Shown in pieces: positions 53,845-58,262 of a stretch of DNA of 64,000 nt. This DNA is from an uncultured Carboxylicivirga sp. (GTDB lineage: Bacteria > Bacteroidota > Bacteroidia > Bacteroidales > Marinilabiliaceae), in contig CANLLN010000001.1 in the NCBI GenBank assembly GCA_947491945.1, positions 124,001-188,000 of the forward strand, written 5' to 3'. The notes beneath the pieces are model-generated. The model saw only the letters and a program-made list of their open reading frames with translations. It ran no database searches and had not been told where the DNA came from. The position numbers were made by a program, and so were the translations under genes. Within the stretch, counting starts at the first letter, position 1. Each line of letters starts with the position of its first letter.

Positions 53845-53964
53845 TTAGGCTGGTGACAAGCTTGTAATTATTTGTGTTGCCAGCTTTTCAAAGGCTTTGT
53901 GAAGTGTTTTGTCCGAAGAGTGATAAATGCTTTTACCACTATCGCTTGTGGCTTCAATATCCAT
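53845..53964 (-). pseudogene. Frameshifted C-terminal tail of Mrp (39 codons)
   Basis: This frame begins with an ATG that overlaps the mrp stop codon (TAATG) and runs 39 codons to a TAA. Its start MDIEATSDSGK continues the Mrp family consensus where the main frame stops: IPL, then V, then roughly DI..ASDSGK. One base is missing between the TTG (Leu) codon and the next codon. The rest (HKAFEKLATQIITSL) matches the typical C-terminal helix. It is either the result of a deletion or sequencing error, or a separately translated tail made by stop-start reinitiation. Confidence 0.72.
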
Positions 53965-54668
53965 TACAACGGTATTTGCCCTAAAAGAGGAATATTAAAT
54001 TCACGGGCCAACTCTTCGCCACCACCTTTACCAAATATGTTATATTGTTCATCGGGATGAGCCTTAGGCGTAAACCAGCTCATGTTTTCCACAATGCCCA
54101 GCAGTGGCATTTTAATGGAAGAATGTCTGAACATACTTAGTGCCTTCCTGCCATCGGCCACCGCCAGTTGCTGGGGGGTAATTACTACCAATGCTTGCGC
54201 CTTTTTTAGGTCTTGCGCCAGCGTAATGCAGATATCGCCGGTGCCGGGTGGCATGTCAATCACCAAAGCATCAAGTGGCCCCCAAAGGGTGTCGTTAATA
54301 ATTTGTTTTAGTGTTTTTGATGCCATGGGTCCCCGCCATATTACCGCATCTTCCTTGTTAGTAAGGAGTCCAATGGACATGATTTTGACCCCGTACTTTT
54401 CGATGGGTACGATGTAGTTCTTATTGTTTTGTTGGCTCAGGCGGGGTCGCTGACCTTCCAGGCCAAACTGAATAGGAGTGGAGGGGCCGTATAAATCGGC
54501 ATCCAAAAGACCGGTTGATAAGCCTTCGCGTGCCAGGCTGACGGCCAGGTTAGCAGCTACTGTCGATTTGCCTACGCCTCCCTTGCCCGAGGCCACCATG
54601 ATGATGTGTTTTACATCGGGCAAAAGCTCTTTCTCCTGCTGCGGAATTACCATTTTATATTCTGACAT
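53964..54668 (-). CDS. Mrp/NBP35 family P-loop ATPase, frame-interrupted near the C-terminus
   Basis: 234 aa. Deviant Walker A motif ASGKGGVGKSTVAANLA at about 27-43, then LLDADLYGPSTPIQFGLEG, VIDMPPGTGDICITLAQD and VENMSWFTP. Unlike the housekeeping Mrp it has no N-terminal DUF59/MIP18 domain, and it lacks the CPxC motif in the ENMS region. The frame ends at LLGQIPL, about 40 residues short, and the missing part is encoded in the adjacent frame at 53845-53964. Mrp proteins carry or transfer Fe-S clusters. Last gene of the orange-protein-like cluster, 66 bp after the second MinD-like gene. Confidence 0.85.
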   Translation of the reverse strand: MSEYKMVIPQQEKELLPDVKHIIMVASGKGGVGKSTVAANLAVSLAREGLSTGLLDADLYGPSTPIQFGLEGQRPRLSQQNNKNYIVPIEKYGVKIMSIGLLTNKEDAVIWRGPMASKTLKQIINDTLWGPLDALVIDMPPGTGDICITLAQDLKKAQALVVITPQQLAVADGRKALSMFRHSSIKMPLLGIVENMSWFTPKAHPDEQYNIFGKGGGEELAREFNIPLLGQIPL

Positions 54669-54734
54669 AGTGTTATTGTTTAGGCTATTTATATACTTAA
54701 TACAATTTGCGATGGTAAAGCGAGTAAAATTGTT

Positions 54735-55610
54735 CTACTCCTGTGCTCTTTGTGCCAGGTAATTCCAGGCACGGCGTATTTGTATGGCTGCTTCTGATTG
54801 CGGTGCATAGTCAACAATGGTTTTTTGTGCCAGCATGGCTTCCCTTGCGACCCGACTAAATGGTATTTTGGCCAGTAGAGGAATGTTAGCTCTTTTCAGC
54901 CCTTGCTCTACTTCTTGCTCAACCATTTGATTAATGCCGGATTTATTGATAACAGCCGAAATGGGGATATTAAAATTACGGATGAGGCTAATGAGCCGCT
55001 GGGCATCGTGCCAGCCACTTTGCGTGGGTTCAATAACCAACAGTACTTGATGGGTGCCGGTGAGCGAAGCAATAACAGGGCAGCCAATGCCCGGTGGTCC
55101 GTCGCTTAGCAGGTAGCGTGCCTTCCTGTTTTTTGCTTCCTGTGCGGCTTTACGGCGGATAAAGCTTACCAGCTTGCCCGAGTTTTCTTCGCCGGGACCC
55201 ATCTGTGCATGCACAAAAGGACCATTGGCTGTATCAGACAGAAACCATTGGTTACCGCTGTTGGGCGTTGACGTAATGGCCTCTTGAGGGCATAAGCGTT
55301 CGCACAGGCGGCAGCCTTCGCAGCTAAAGGGGTTAATATGATAGCTTCCGTCCTTTAGCTCAATGGCTTTATAGCGGCAGTGCTCAAAGCAAAGTCCACA
55401 TTGCGAGCAATCTGAATCATTGATGTGAGCCGTCCATCCGCTGGTAAAAACGCCATTTTCTAACACTGTGGGTTGCAGCAGCAGAAACAGGTCGGCCGCA
55501 TCCACATCGTTATCGCAGATCACAGCACTGTCGGCTAGTGCTGTGAGTGCGGCTGTGATGGTGGTTTTGCCGGTGCCTCCCTTGCCGCTTAATATGGTTA
55601 TTTCATGCAT
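54735..55610 (-). CDS. MinD-like P-loop ATPase with inserted ferredoxin domain (Orp4-like)
   Basis: 291 aa from the ATG at 55610. A longer open frame exists but would overlap the upstream gene by about 250 bp; this start gives the correct N-terminus MHEITILSGKGGTGKTT and an 8-bp overlap. The P-loop is at about 8-16. Two 4Fe-4S motifs, CSQCGLCFEHC and CEGCRLCERLCP, lie at about 60-110, followed by LLSDGPPGIGCPVIASLTG. This is the COG1149 type found mainly in anaerobes. It forms a pair with the upstream paralogue and probably a heterodimer. ATP-driven electron or cluster transfer is inferred. Confidence 0.88.
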   Translation of the reverse strand: MHEITILSGKGGTGKTTITAALTALADSAVICDNDVDAADLFLLLQPTVLENGVFTSGWTAHINDSDCSQCGLCFEHCRYKAIELKDGSYHINPFSCEGCRLCERLCPQEAITSTPNSGNQWFLSDTANGPFVHAQMGPGEENSGKLVSFIRRKAAQEAKNRKARYLLSDGPPGIGCPVIASLTGTHQVLLVIEPTQSGWHDAQRLISLIRNFNIPISAVINKSGINQMVEQEVEQGLKRANIPLLAKIPFSRVAREAMLAQKTIVDYAPQSEAAIQIRRAWNYLAQRAQE

Positions 55611-56484
55611 ATTGCAATAGCTTACTTTGTAGATGGGTAATAATTGCTTGATAGGCTGTTGTAATTGTATCCGGAATGTCATCCAGCAGCGCTCCGCGGG
55701 CGTATTGATGAGCGTAGTTGCTTGAGAAAGGTATCTTTCCCAGTACTTCAATCTTTTCTGCTGCCAGGTAGTCGTCGAGCGCCTTGAAGTTGTCCTCGTA
55801 TTTGTTAATGATGACCCCAAAGGGTTGTTGAAGCTCGCGCATAAGGGCAACCATCAGCTTTAAATCGTGCAGGCCGAAGGGGCTTGGTTCGGTAACCAAA
55901 ATAGTGTAATCAGCTTGGGTTACGGTGGCTACCACCGGGCAGCTTGTTCCCGGAGGGGCGTCCAGCAGCTGTATGTCGGCATTTACGTGATGACTCTTAA
56001 GTAGCTCTTTAATGGCCAGCGTTTGCATGGGTGAGCCAATATTCAGTCGCCCTTCAACCAGCGAAGTATGCTCGCAGTTACCGTAGCAGCTCAGTTGTGC
56101 AATGGGATGCGCCTCTTCAATAATAGCCTCGGGAACGGGACAGGCGTAAGTACATGCGCCACAGGAGTGGCACAGGCTTTTGTTGACCTCGGCAAAGTTG
56201 GCTGTGGGAAGAACTACAATGGCGTTAAACTCGCAATATTCAACACATTGACGGCAGAAAGTGCATTGGGATGTGTCGATGTGTGGTATCATCTGATGAA
56301 TAGCTTCTTCGCTTTGTTTCTTGTAACCCTTTAAAAAAAGAGCATCATTGGGCTCTTCTACATCGCAGTCGATGAGTTGCACCGAGGCTGTTGCCTGTGT
56401 TTTTAAGTGATGAAAGAGGTTCAGTGAAACGGTGGTTTTGCCCGTGCCTCCTTTACCACTGGCGATAGCTATCTTTACTGACAT
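55603..56484 (-). CDS. MinD-like P-loop ATPase with inserted ferredoxin domain (Orp3-like)
   Basis: 293 aa. P-loop ASGKGGTGKTTVSLNLF at the N-terminus; two 4Fe-4S motifs CTFCRQCVEYC and CHSCGACTYACP at about 70-110; then LLDAPPGTSCPVVATV and VTEPSPFGLHDLKLM. It is a paralogue of the next gene (overlap 8 bp) and overlaps the upstream DUF4405 gene by 10 bp, so the three are translated together. In sulfate reducers two such proteins belong to the orange-protein complex. Confidence 0.88.
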   Translation of the reverse strand: MSVKIAIASGKGGTGKTTVSLNLFHHLKTQATASVQLIDCDVEEPNDALFLKGYKKQSEEAIHQMIPHIDTSQCTFCRQCVEYCEFNAIVVLPTANFAEVNKSLCHSCGACTYACPVPEAIIEEAHPIAQLSCYGNCEHTSLVEGRLNIGSPMQTLAIKELLKSHHVNADIQLLDAPPGTSCPVVATVTQADYTILVTEPSPFGLHDLKLMVALMRELQQPFGVIINKYEDNFKALDDYLAAEKIEVLGKIPFSSNYAHQYARGALLDDIPDTITTAYQAIITHLQSKLLQYA

Positions 56485-57137
56485 TCTTCATGATACTGGT
56501 TGATGATATTTCTGATTTCTGACATCTGAAAACCATATTGTTTGCGTAGTTGTCCCAGTTGCGCCTCACCGTTAACATGCTTAGGTAGTTGTAAATGCTG
56601 CTGCAGATAGGGCAGAGGTACTTTGTAGGTGTCTACCACTTCCTGAAGCCTTAGTTTACCGTTAATGACTGTTGTTTGTTTAAGATCTGCCTGTATAGCA
56701 TGCTTTGTAACGGGTGCCTGGGGATGCTGATGGCTTGTATGTTTGCTATTTTCTACTGGTCTTGTTATGTCGCTTGGTTTTACAAAAAACGGAATAATCA
56801 ATAATGAAAGACAAATAAATACGAAGCACCATGATATAAGTGATTTAGCACTTGAGGAATTAACCATTCTACTGAAAATGGTTTTAATGAAGCCCCAGTG
56901 TAGCACAATATGAACCACCAGAAGGGCTATCATCACCAGGCTGATATAAAAATGAATATCGCCCCACTGGTGCCGGTCCATACCCAGCCATTGCAGATTT
57001 TTACCTGCGCCCGCTTGTGCCCACCGATCCTGCCCCGAGGGCAGGGTGTATTTTATTAAAAGCCCAATGCCACTTATTGCACAGAGGCAAAATAATAGCA
57101 AGGCATCGATAATGAAATTGATGCTTGACTTCTTCAT
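56475..57137 (-). CDS. DUF4405-type cytochrome-b-like membrane protein with a C-terminal helical domain
   Basis: 220 aa. Three clear TM helices (about 8-28, 60-82, 102-120), with His residues at DRHQWGDIHFYIS and VVHIVLHWGF placed like heme ligands of DUF4405/NapH-like cytochromes. A His/Pro-rich linker follows (about 125-150). The C-terminal about 65 residues (LRLQEVVDTYKVPLPYLQQH and LGQLRKQYGFQMSEIRNII) form a soluble helical unit that I have seen fused to cytochrome-b and 4Fe-4S proteins. It may link the quinone pool to the ATPases downstream. Heme binding is inferred. Confidence 0.75.
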   Translation of the reverse strand: MKKSSINFIIDALLLFCLCAISGIGLLIKYTLPSGQDRWAQAGAGKNLQWLGMDRHQWGDIHFYISLVMIALLVVHIVLHWGFIKTIFSRMVNSSSAKSLISWCFVFICLSLLIIPFFVKPSDITRPVENSKHTSHQHPQAPVTKHAIQADLKQTTVINGKLRLQEVVDTYKVPLPYLQQHLQLPKHVNGEAQLGQLRKQYGFQMSEIRNIINQYHEECQ

Positions 57138-57163
57138 CGGTTATCTGTAGTTAATAAATAAAA

Positions 57164-57218
57164 GGCAGAGGATGACTTACAATTGTGAGAAATAGATGAT
57201 TCTGAGTCACCCTCTGTC
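57164..57218. repeat. 14-bp imperfect inverted repeat inside the orp-like cluster
   Basis: GGCAGAGGATGACT (57164-57177) pairs with AGTCACCCTCTGTC (57205-57218) over a 27-nt loop; the two mismatches can form G-U pairs. It lies in the only sizeable gap (119 bp) of the operon. It could be a processing site or a partial terminator that sets the ratio of upstream to downstream genes. Confidence 0.45.
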
Positions 57219-57256
57219 ACCACTCATTTTGCTTATTTGTGAGTTTGCTGAAACAC

Positions 57257-57439
57257 TTACTCGTTTCCGGATCTGAATTTGAATCCGAAGCCCCATTTAC
57301 GGCGACCTCTTCCTCGTCCCATGCCCGCCTCTGATTGAGAAGGTGCATCTTTACTGTTTTTTGAAGTACGGCATTTGCCTCTACCTCTTCCGGTACCGGG
57401 ACCTTGTCCCGATGGTCCGCTTGCGTCGAATCTTGGCAT
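57257..57439 (-). CDS. Small Gly/Arg-rich protein (DUF5320-like)
   Basis: 60 aa. MPRFDASGPSGQGPGTGRGR followed by a Ser/Lys-rich stretch and GMGRGRGRRKWGFGFKF. MP.FD..GP.G.GP.TGRG.G.C is the usual opening of the small proteins that accompany NifX/MTH1175-like genes in anaerobes. One Cys is present (GRGKCR). Located 12 bp after the NifX-like gene. Function unknown. Confidence 0.72.
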   Translation of the reverse strand: MPRFDASGPSGQGPGTGRGRGKCRTSKNSKDAPSQSEAGMGRGRGRRKWGFGFKFRSGNE

Positions 57440-57451
57440 AATAAACCGGTT

Positions 57452-57769
57452 TTAAACGGATAATTTATCGATGATTACTCCCACGGTACTGTTGGCATCA
57501 TCCAGCATCACCATCTGAATCTTAAATTGATTAAGCAAATCTTTTGCTTTGGGTCCGAAGTCACCGGAGATAATTCGTTTCACCCCCAGCTCAATCATCT
57601 TCTCGGCTGCCTTTGTGCCGGCACCGCCTTGTGCATCGCACTGTTCGTTGGCAATAAACTGCGTACTGCCATTGCTTGTGTCATAAACGCAAAAATAGGC
57701 AGCGCGACCAAAGCGCAGGTCAAATTTTGCATCGGTGCTGTCTCCGCTTGATGTGATAGCAATCTTCAT
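57452..57769 (-). CDS. NifX/NifB C-terminal-like (orange protein, COG1433) protein
   Basis: 105 aa, a single dinitrogenase-iron-molybdenum-cofactor-type domain: MKIAITSSGDSTDAKFDLRF, GRAAYFCVYD, QGGAGTKAAEKMIELGVKRI and SGDFGPKA. Length and fold fit the orange protein of Desulfovibrio, which carries a Mo/Cu-sulfide cluster, and archaeal MTH1175-like proteins. No nifHDK or molybdenum cofactor genes are in the window. Metal-cluster binding is inferred. It is 11 bp downstream of the DUF134 gene. Confidence 0.88.
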   Translation of the reverse strand: MKIAITSSGDSTDAKFDLRFGRAAYFCVYDTSNGSTQFIANEQCDAQGGAGTKAAEKMIELGVKRIISGDFGPKAKDLLNQFKIQMVMLDDANSTVGVIIDKLSV

Positions 57770-57780
57770 AATATCTCGTG

Positions 57781-58188
57781 TTATTTCATTTTTTTAATGA
57801 TGGGTTCAATGGCATCTGACTTACAGATGGGACAGTCTTTACTGTTGTCATCGGGCAGGTTAAAGCGCGCGTGACAGGCATTGCATACATACCAGTCATC
57901 ATCGAGGTGTGCGTTGCCAAACACTGTTTTGAACTCACAGGATTCAACCAGTGATTTAGCAATTTTTTGACGGGCACTTTCGTAAATGCGGGCAAAGGTA
58001 GCCCGAGAAATTCCCATTAGCTTACAGGCCTCTTCCTGGTTCATATTATCATAATCGGCTAGTTTTATGGCTTCATATTCTTCGTAATTTAGTTCGACTA
58101 CCCGATTGTTCTTGATATGGCCATAAGGTCTAAATCCTTTGAACCCCGGCGGGGCTACTATTTTTCGTAAACGTCTTCGTCGTGGCAT
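57781..58188 (-). CDS. DUF134 (UPF0251) DNA-binding regulator with a C-terminal zinc ribbon
   Basis: 135 aa. N-terminal basic MPRRRRLRKIVAPPGFKGFRP, then a sigma-region-4-like HTH (YEAIKLADYDNMNQEEACKLMGISRATFARI, seen as the parts LADYDNMNQEEACK and MGISRATFARIYESAR, about 37-75). A C-terminal zinc ribbon-like segment follows, CNACHARF and CPICKSD (about 102-127). DUF134 proteins are usually encoded next to NifX-like genes and are thought to regulate them. First gene of the operon; it is immediately preceded by two perfect palindromes that are good candidates for its own operator. Confidence 0.87.
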   Translation of the reverse strand: MPRRRRLRKIVAPPGFKGFRPYGHIKNNRVVELNYEEYEAIKLADYDNMNQEEACKLMGISRATFARIYESARQKIAKSLVESCEFKTVFGNAHLDDDWYVCNACHARFNLPDDNSKDCPICKSDAIEPIIKKMK

Positions 58189-58213
58189 AATTGAATATTG
58201 ATGCTACAAATAT

Positions 58214-58262
58214 AATGAGAATATTCTCATATAGCAAGGTTTCAAATGAGAATATTCTCATT
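58214..58262. promoter_or_regulatory. Two identical 16-bp palindromes: probable operator pair
   Basis: ATGAGAATATTCTCAT occurs twice, at 58215-58230 and 58246-58261, centre to centre 31 bp or about three helical turns. Both copies are perfect palindromes on the same DNA face, 27 bp and more before the DUF134 start codon. The distance and symmetry fit cooperative binding of two dimers, most simply by the DUF134 protein or by a redox/metal regulator. Confidence 0.82.

Follow-up and report, generated by a model that had tools for sequence, protein, structure and literature searches.

The 64,000-nt stretch of DNA analysed here (the window), from an uncultured Carboxylicivirga sp., carries a run of seven minus-strand genes that begins with a gene for a DUF134 protein, a protein of unknown function by its Pfam name, and continues with genes for a NifX-like protein, a DUF5320 protein, a DUF4405 membrane protein, two ferredoxin-MinD ATPases, and an Mrp-type ATPase. 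Two identical copies of the palindrome ATGAGAATATTCTCAT, 31 bp apart, were located upstream of DUF134, and it is very likely that DUF134 binds them. The gene run belongs to a widespread operon family thought to handle metal sulfides; the operator is the new part. As an explanation of the whole, we consider it reasonably probable that the locus is an autoregulated operon handling metal-sulfide or Fe-S species. Repression by DUF134 is likely, handling of clusters or of sulfide by the operon is slightly favoured by the gene families present, and a role for NifX as the sensor is tentative and rather doubtful.

The first-pass annotation of this DNA did not mention the paired palindromes, which in the follow-up proved to be the most informative feature of the locus. 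Shuffling of the window gave an expectation of 0.01 palindrome matches at two or fewer mismatches. A search of the 4.9-Mb genome found exact ATGAGAATATTCTCAT to be confined to this locus, with one extra place for its 14-bp core at a single mismatch. The proximal copy occupies the space between a TTG (58237-58235) and TATATTTG (58214-58207). Promoters of Bacteroides are reported to carry TTTG around -33 and TAnnTTTG at -7, and the same report gives the -33 motif as not found in Flavobacterium johnsoniae (PMC7366714). At the -33-like position of 100 aligned sites, which is approximate in place, the frequencies were T 0.80, T 0.85, and G 0.43 or T 0.47. The composite of operator and -7 box was matched in the genome at C1:182207-182229 and a second time at C22:250. 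A larger regulon in this genome was considered and rejected; because the genome offered only the one single-mismatch place and C22:250, which is non-palindromic, this operon is the only one predicted to respond.

The same arrangement was found before DUF134 genes from other genomes. The operator pattern was derived from the sequences that were scored, many of the loci are mutually related, and the controls were shuffled sequences and the upstreams of other open reading frames. Exact TGARMNNNNKYTCA occurred within 300 nt upstream of 86 of 118 DUF134 genes. For a set of 189 distinct genes, the exact operator was observed at 134, whereas 100 dinucleotide shuffles gave a mean of 1.72 and a maximum of 6; when one mismatch was allowed, the count was 171 as compared to 30.9. 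Among 266 distinct DUF134 genes, 170 had the exact operator and 220 had it with no more than one mismatch, while the exact site was present at 21 of 1146 upstreams of other reading frames (at least 200 aa, same loci). TAnnTTTG started exactly one base beyond the 14-mer at 122 of the 202 exact sites and at one of four other offsets at nine; a -7 box was nearby in 3.4% of random positions. The commonest spacings of second operator copies were 26 bp, seen in 13 pairs, and 31 bp, seen in 4. The palindrome took the form TGAGA-NNNN-TCTCA in the clade of the window and TGAAC or TGAGC in others.

The DUF134 protein was modelled with AF2 (pLDDT 83.7) as containing a helix-turn-helix (HTH) with its last helix at residues 62-82. 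In Foldseek, this HTH superposed on sigma region 4 at 0.7-1.0 Å over about 48 residues, a weak similarity (E 0.06-0.1), and the search returned no PDB match at E ≤0.001. A PDB sequence search gave a single weak match (E 0.07), which was set aside as apparently spurious. Three cysteines, C102, C105, and C119, were invariant across 51 DUF134 sequences. The likeness to sigma region 4 also bears on the direction of regulation, for DUF134 could be an activator that works from the promoter spacer, as MerR does, rather than a repressor. We regard activation as rather unlikely. It would fit a site that lies at fixed phase between the -33-like and -7 boxes, as well as the sigma-like fold; tandem copies 26 or 31 bp apart, some of them probably over the start site, suit occlusion better, the promoter boxes look intact, and the palindrome itself contains TTGACA, the usual -35 box, in four Bacillota upstreams.

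Residue 66, at the start of the recognition helix, followed the operator closely. It was Ala or Gly in 105 of 110 half-sites reading TGAG and Thr or Ser in 217 of 230 reading TGAA; at the next base of the half-site, Ala66 occurred mostly with A (67/78) and Gly66 with C (32/32). When proteins with GA and AC operators were compared, residue 66 had the highest mutual information (0.86) of the columns considered. The association between residue 66 and the operator is thus strong, and its independence limited. Among the papers listed for DUF134 we found none with a title about this protein, and we found no paper for the four operator palindromes, a search of print that did not extend to the short form described below for other phyla. 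Control genomes showed DUF134 to be present in both bacteria and archaea.

Sites in trans were examined next to those before DUF134. Within the order, 123 of the 295 genomes searched had the composite of operator and -7 box, with 8 matches for a reversed-pattern control. Of 30 composite sites with loci, 16 were before DUF134 (one by coordinates only), 4 were before a NifX or DUF5320 gene with no DUF134 in the stretch, and 10 were before other genes or nothing called. Twenty further sites, two of which repeat places among the 30, were chosen for not being directly before a listed DUF134 gene. Eleven of them preceded NifX, DUF5320, or MinD-type genes; the choice was not blind, as NifX was already known on the contig for seven of these eleven, and four (L390, L395, L396, and L409) were unforeseen. 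Four others preceded DUF134 genes absent from the prior list, and five were other or uninformative. In the earlier loci, a composite site lay within 200 nt of only three non-DUF134 genes, encoding NifX, DUF5320, and a 397-aa protein that resembles, by eye, methionine-gamma-lyase-like proteins. In L399, a second site lies directly before a CoA-disulfide-reductase-like gene. One of the five other or uninformative sites, in L405 (349-3765), is followed by a TonB-dependent receptor and then a two-domain Mrp-NifX protein, DUF134 being further downstream.

These surveys also speak to whether the palindromes are bound by another, global factor, with DUF134 first in the operon by coincidence. The sites before other reading frames, and composite matches in genomes without a DUF134 match, are what such a factor would leave. 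Yet the exact site is unique to this locus in its genome, the half-site base varies with the recognition-helix residue 66, and the sites accompany DUF134 across classes and, in a shorter form, across phyla; we consider a different binding protein very improbable.

The downstream neighbours of DUF134 were counted in 127 clusters with 6 kb of downstream sequence. On the same strand were genes for DUF89/ARMT1 (30), methionine-gamma-lyase-like (16), and CoA-disulfide-reductase-like (15) proteins; on the opposite strand the count for all three was 0. NCBIfam scores of the tested examples were below the equivalog cut-offs, so that these names hold at the level of the family only. The DUF89/ARMT1-like phosphatase is recurrent in the clusters (e.g., L067:5721-6581, L070:2484-3326, and L076:6078-6935). 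In L406, a composite site is followed by DUF134 and then cydAB (cytochrome bd oxidase), while L189 has cydA after a DUF134 gene that lacks an exact site; cytochrome bd has been reported to sustain sulfide-resistant respiration (PMC4815019).

Several observations weigh against the proposed operator and against the operon built around it. The exact site was missing from 96 of the 266 DUF134 genes, including a group without NifX, and in 49 of 225 NifX was absent both as a fusion and within 1.5 kb. Some composite matches were not full palindromes, and some were in genomes without a DUF134 match (e.g., G230, G404, G590, and G682). A spacer-binding activator would yield a geometry identical to that of a repressor. 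Sulfur-enzyme-like neighbours were a minority of clusters, and the Mrp gene, broken or mis-assembled, may leave the operon partly non-functional in this genome. Further columns of DUF134 outside the helix also separated the operator classes, above all 88-90, with mutual information of 0.71-0.79. These values are as expected from shared ancestry, and the match of residue 66 reflects clades in part. In a tree built with column 66 left out, there were 4 residue-class changes as compared to 15 operator-base changes; the operator base often changed without a change at residue 66, and no test was significant. On supported branches, two independent pairs differed in residue 66, with the operator agreeing in 1.8 on average, and four pairs differed in the operator, with residue 66 following in 1.5; neither set had a pair in the opposite direction. 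An earlier 189-row tree gave 3 supported pairs of the first kind and 5 of the second. The idea that residue 66 acts as an independent switch was not retained, the independent changes being too few for significance.

Other phyla carry a related site. Searches of plasmid records matched 170 and 191 records; the best 20 of each were examined and had DUF134 in Bacillota, Spirochaetota, and Pseudomonadota. Upstream sequences came from 14 loci, namely 12 plasmid records and two loci of a viral collection that have the same upstream. Not all of the 14 are independent, as upstream sequence is shared within the pairs L410/L411 and L419/L423. The long pattern was not found in these upstreams, but TGRCANNTGYCA, one base shorter per half-site, was exact in 8 of the 14 loci and present with no more than one mismatch in 13; outside these stretches, 5 exact copies occurred in 75.5 kb. 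Proteins of Roseburia, Selenomonas, Pusillibacter, and Treponema covered 93-100% of a DUF134-NifX fusion query, and in Peptoclostridium the order, by annotation, was DUF134-NifX-ATPase-ATPase-MrpORP. Six gammaproteobacterial plasmid records (L418-L423) had a DUF134-NifX pair, with a PaaI thioesterase next in four of the six and Dps and ArsR-type genes in two.

The DUF134 frame ran on into a NifX domain in 7 of 266 genes, five of them with an exact operator, and in the one fusion checked with Pfam both domains were above cut-off. A Gly/Arg-rich C-terminal tail was present on DUF134 in 24 of 266, of which 18 were from one family of the phylum (f19), and a NifX protein with a Gly/Arg-rich tail was found at L164:149-697, at a distance from the DUF134 gene of this locus. 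DUF134, NifX, and a cationic segment are thus linked pairwise by fusion. The 124 DUF5320 proteins in the loci had a median isoelectric point (pI) of 10.7, with 113 at a pI of at least 9.5. Elsewhere in the genome of the window (L100; C10:66000-79000), a second NifX-domain protein has a His/Cys-rich C terminus, with no composite site there.

All seven reading frames of the first-pass annotation were recovered at their coordinates, and its family names were upheld by Pfam scores exceeding the curated cut-offs (Table 1). The DUF134 profile was matched at E 1e-21 (77.7 bits; cut-off 27), Nitro_FeMo-Co (PF02579) by the NifX-like protein at E 5e-16, DUF5320 by the 60-aa protein at E 2e-10, DUF4405 at E 2e-15 (57.6 bits; cut-off 26.7), and ParA/Mrp by the Mrp protein at E 7e-82; both MinD-type proteins had a CbiA ATPase domain and Fer4 motifs. 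Spacing had been described as mostly gaps of 8-12 bp or overlaps. In gene order, the junctions were 11 bp, 12 bp, 119 bp, a 10-bp overlap, an 8-bp overlap, and 66 bp, so that the description suits four of the six and not the gaps before DUF4405 and Mrp.

Table 1. Features of the DUF134 locus in the window
Feature	Position	Strand	Basis or remark
Distal operator palindrome ATGAGAATATTCTCAT	58246..58261	.	perfect 16-bp palindrome
-33-like element TTG	58235..58237	-	20 nt ahead of -7 box
Proximal operator palindrome ATGAGAATATTCTCAT, within promoter spacer	58215..58230	.	perfect 16-bp palindrome
-7 box TATATTTG	58207..58214	-	fits Bacteroidota TAnnTTTG, directly after operator
DUF134 regulator	57781..58188	-	Pfam PF02001; sigma-region-4-like HTH and C-x2-C/C-x2-C ribbon
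NifX-like (PF02579) protein	57452..57769	-	Pfam and similarity to solved structures
DUF5320, cationic Gly/Arg-rich, 60 aa	57257..57439	-	Pfam; calculated pI 11.7
Hairpin, 12-bp stem, T-rich 3' side; possible attenuator/terminator before DUF4405	57166..57216	-	folding compared with shuffles
DUF4405 membrane protein, soluble C-terminal part	56475..57137	-	Pfam; conserved His segments
Ferredoxin-MinD ATPase 1, two 4Fe-4S motifs	55603..56484	-	CbiA and Fer4 domains
Ferredoxin-MinD ATPase 2, two 4Fe-4S motifs	54735..55610	-	CbiA and Fer4; ATG start taken from sequence
Mrp/ParA-type ATPase, early frame end	53964..54668	-	ParA/Mrp profile
Mrp C-terminal remainder, other frame, 40 codons	53845..53967	-	comparison with L218 sequence

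The 119-bp gap before DUF4405 contains a hairpin (12-bp stem) with a T-rich stretch behind it, a weak fold (z -2.1; 6 of 200 shuffles fold equally well) that was absent from the output of a short-loop terminator scan. The reading frame of Mrp is 234 aa long and closes at 53964; 40 more codons, in another frame, extend to 53845. Marinilabiliaceae bacterium A049 (L218; DUF134 76% identical), the closest relative found, has Mrp intact as a single 273-aa frame; by this best match, the window would be from a member of the Bacteroidales, probably related to Marinilabiliaceae. An assembly or sequencing error, or a recent mutation, would be the simpler explanation of the split. A programmed frameshift was disfavoured, given the intact frame of L218 and other Mrp-like frames of 263-296 codons from stop to stop; the exception, at 207 codons in L104, is at the end of its locus.

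Gene order was surveyed at 170 distinct DUF134 genes, each followed by 2.5 kb or more of available sequence; NifX was counted within 3 kb or fused, and the other families up to 9 kb away or to the end of a shorter locus. NifX was near or fused at 141 of the 170, MinD-type ATPases were near 101, DUF5320 near 77, Mrp near 24, and DUF4405 near 8. The order anticipated for relatives (DUF134-NifX-DUF5320-DUF4405-MinD-MinD-Mrp) is therefore recurrent once DUF4405 is left out, with DUF5320 and Mrp variable. The run in L218 is DUF134-NifX-DUF5320-MinD-MinD-Mrp, without DUF4405, and 23 bp after its Mrp is a CoA-disulfide-reductase-like protein with a rhodanese domain. Eight loci (L263, L274, L282, L284, L285, L288, L293, and L294) form a DUF134 group with no exact operator and no NifX in the downstream DNA examined. 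A PepSY-TM-like gene follows DUF134 in L263, L274, and L211 (Pfam was run on L211 only).

The DUF4405 protein had been called cytochrome-b-like, and the first-pass annotation had it provide a membrane-linked electron input to the ferredoxin-MinD ATPases. Its DUF4405 profile match and the His residues in or near membrane segments agree with the name; the cytochrome b561 profile, at 18.8 bits, was under its cut-off of 30.1. Conserved His residues occur in RH(Q/E/G)WG.IH and H..(L/F/Y)HW segments, and four His columns are kept across the 8 cluster members (alignment judged by eye), as in a heme-b protein. The DUF4405 coding sequence overlaps that of the first MinD-type ATPase. Two DUF4405 genes in the 4.9-Mb genome give a rough expectation of 0.6 per 170 × 9 kb, and the eight observed are a modest excess that is real. 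However, the closest relative and most clusters have no DUF4405, and 119 bp with a hairpin part it from the genes upstream. Its position varies too: in the window it lies between DUF5320 and the first MinD gene, unlike seven other loci (L070, L076, L078, L174, L220, L221, and L295) that have it downstream of the MinD pair. Membrane electron input was thus abandoned as a general feature of these operons and is improbable for the window as well; DUF4405 is better described as a lineage-specific accessory gene, with a possible accessory role.

The proposed course of regulation and function is as follows: DUF134 would recognise the palindrome placed between the two boxes (-33 and -7) of the DUF134 promoter, as the sequence statistics support, and a dimer seated on the spacer would block RNA polymerase, with the distal copy adding cooperativity. 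A changed cellular status of sulfide, Fe-S, or metal-sulfide would release the operon, and the NifX-like partner, adjacent or fused, may report this status to DUF134. Judging by the protein families, the ligand of NifX would be an anionic metal-sulfur cluster, the cationic DUF5320 may attach to that polyanion in trans, in the way proposed for the tail of IssA in cis, and the ferredoxin-MinD pair together with the Mrp-like ATPase would move or reduce the cluster.

A more far-reaching possibility, speculative and rather unlikely as it stands, is that DUF134 and a NifX- or ORP-type (orange protein-type) protein form a widespread metal-sulfide-sensing repressor, in which loaded NifX frees DUF134 from the operator or clamps it there, and DUF5320 is the IssA tail in trans. 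With as much reserve, the cluster sensed might resemble thioferrate, an Fe-S cluster, or a Mo/Cu-sulfide, bound by a NifX domain that is either separate from DUF134 or fused to it. If true, the operon would be a cluster buffer that responds to sulfide and metals and has a sensor of its own, and DUF134 would be, to our knowledge, the first transcription factor to read a free metal-sulfide polyanion, across Bacteroidota, Bacillota, Spirochaetota, and Pseudomonadota. From the present analysis, DUF134 acquires a predicted DNA target, a promoter geometry, a possible specificity residue, a candidate regulon, and a protein partner. Its operator is of specialist interest because a family of unknown function becomes a testable regulator. 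Since the predicted targets are NifX, DUF5320, and MinD operons together with sulfur-enzyme-like genes, the operator also provides a genetic handle on the orphan roles of NifX-domain and ferredoxin-MinD proteins in anaerobes, and the same handle bears on whether anaerobes store or traffic metal sulfides.

Among the closest known systems is the ORP system, the core of which had been recognised in the window. Divergent sigma-54 operons encode the ORP components, Orp3, 4, 5, 8, and 9, the last of them a two-domain Mrp with CxxC (PMC6345978); the EBP DVU2106 and IHF are also involved (PMC3897727). The resemblance in NifX, paired ferredoxin-MinD ATPases, and an Mrp-type ATPase was confirmed: the window has a single-domain NifX-type protein related to Orp8 and, like Orp3 and Orp4, two ATPases with two 4Fe-4S motifs each. 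DUF134 does occupy the place of the Desulfovibrio sigma-54 regulator. The ORP label itself fails on MrpORP, CxxC, Orp5, and sigma-54. The window Mrp lacks a Di-Nase domain (no PF02579) and scored 251.7 bits against MrpORP (NF041136; cut-off 450), and CxxC is absent from it, with WFTP where the L234 Mrp has CPHC. The loci contained 29 Mrp-like reading frames, of which one, that of L234 (outside the cluster), had CPHC at that place, five had CxxC elsewhere, and 23 had none. No Orp5-like [2Fe-2S] gene was among the seven genes, the promoter arrangement is a single run behind DUF134 and a TAnnTTTG promoter as opposed to divergent sigma-54 operons with an EBP, and DUF5320 and DUF4405 are additions. 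A second NifX follows in 95 relatives, with H-F-G-H-C in most and a C-terminal C.H, and is missing from the window run; the motif resembles the CXHFGHCE/CDH reported for the Di-Nase domain of MrpORP.

A true ORP system as in Desulfovibrio, in which NifX would carry a Mo/Cu-sulfide cluster (S2MoS2CuS2MoS2 in ORP), the MinD-type ATPases would position it in the cell, Mrp would mature these ATPases, and only the regulator would have been exchanged, is unlikely. The shared ATPases speak for it, as do the Peptoclostridium run that reaches a gene annotated MrpORP and the relatedness of the ORP structure 2wfb (E 6e-9) to the window NifX. The closer solved relatives of this NifX, though, are the IssA-type MTH1175 (1eo1; 7e-12) and 1rdu (6e-10), Mrp is rare in the surveyed clusters, and the differences listed above remain. 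With Mrp frame-shifted and without CxxC, this is not the ORP system proper; by the features tested, the window operon is related to ORP and not a member of it. With MrpORP, the window shares a Mrp/NBP35-class P-loop ATPase in the same gene neighbourhood, whereas the window Mrp is single-domain, truncated by the frame shift, and without CxxC.

The regulator has likenesses of its own. The HTH of sigma-70 region 4 and of ECF sigma-4 superposes on that of DUF134, which differs in an N-terminal arm, a C-terminal Cys ribbon, and predicted binding of a palindrome next to the -7 box. MerR-type regulators bind a palindrome in the spacer between promoter boxes, and the DUF134 site is placed likewise, but DUF134 is of another HTH family. 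For the proteins downstream, a close parallel is IssA (PF2025) of Pyrococcus furiosus, a thioferrate storage protein with a NifX-like (IPR003731) domain and a cationic Gly/aromatic-rich tail (predicted pI 10.7), proposed to bind thioferrate (PMC5524996). Of the solved structures, that of MTH1175, on which IssA was modelled, comes nearest to the window NifX. In the window, the cationic part is a separate protein, DUF5320, so that NifX and a cationic tail do not share one chain, and an ATPase pair and a dedicated regulator are added. By analogy, we infer that NifX and DUF5320 of the window may constitute a split IssA-like pair.

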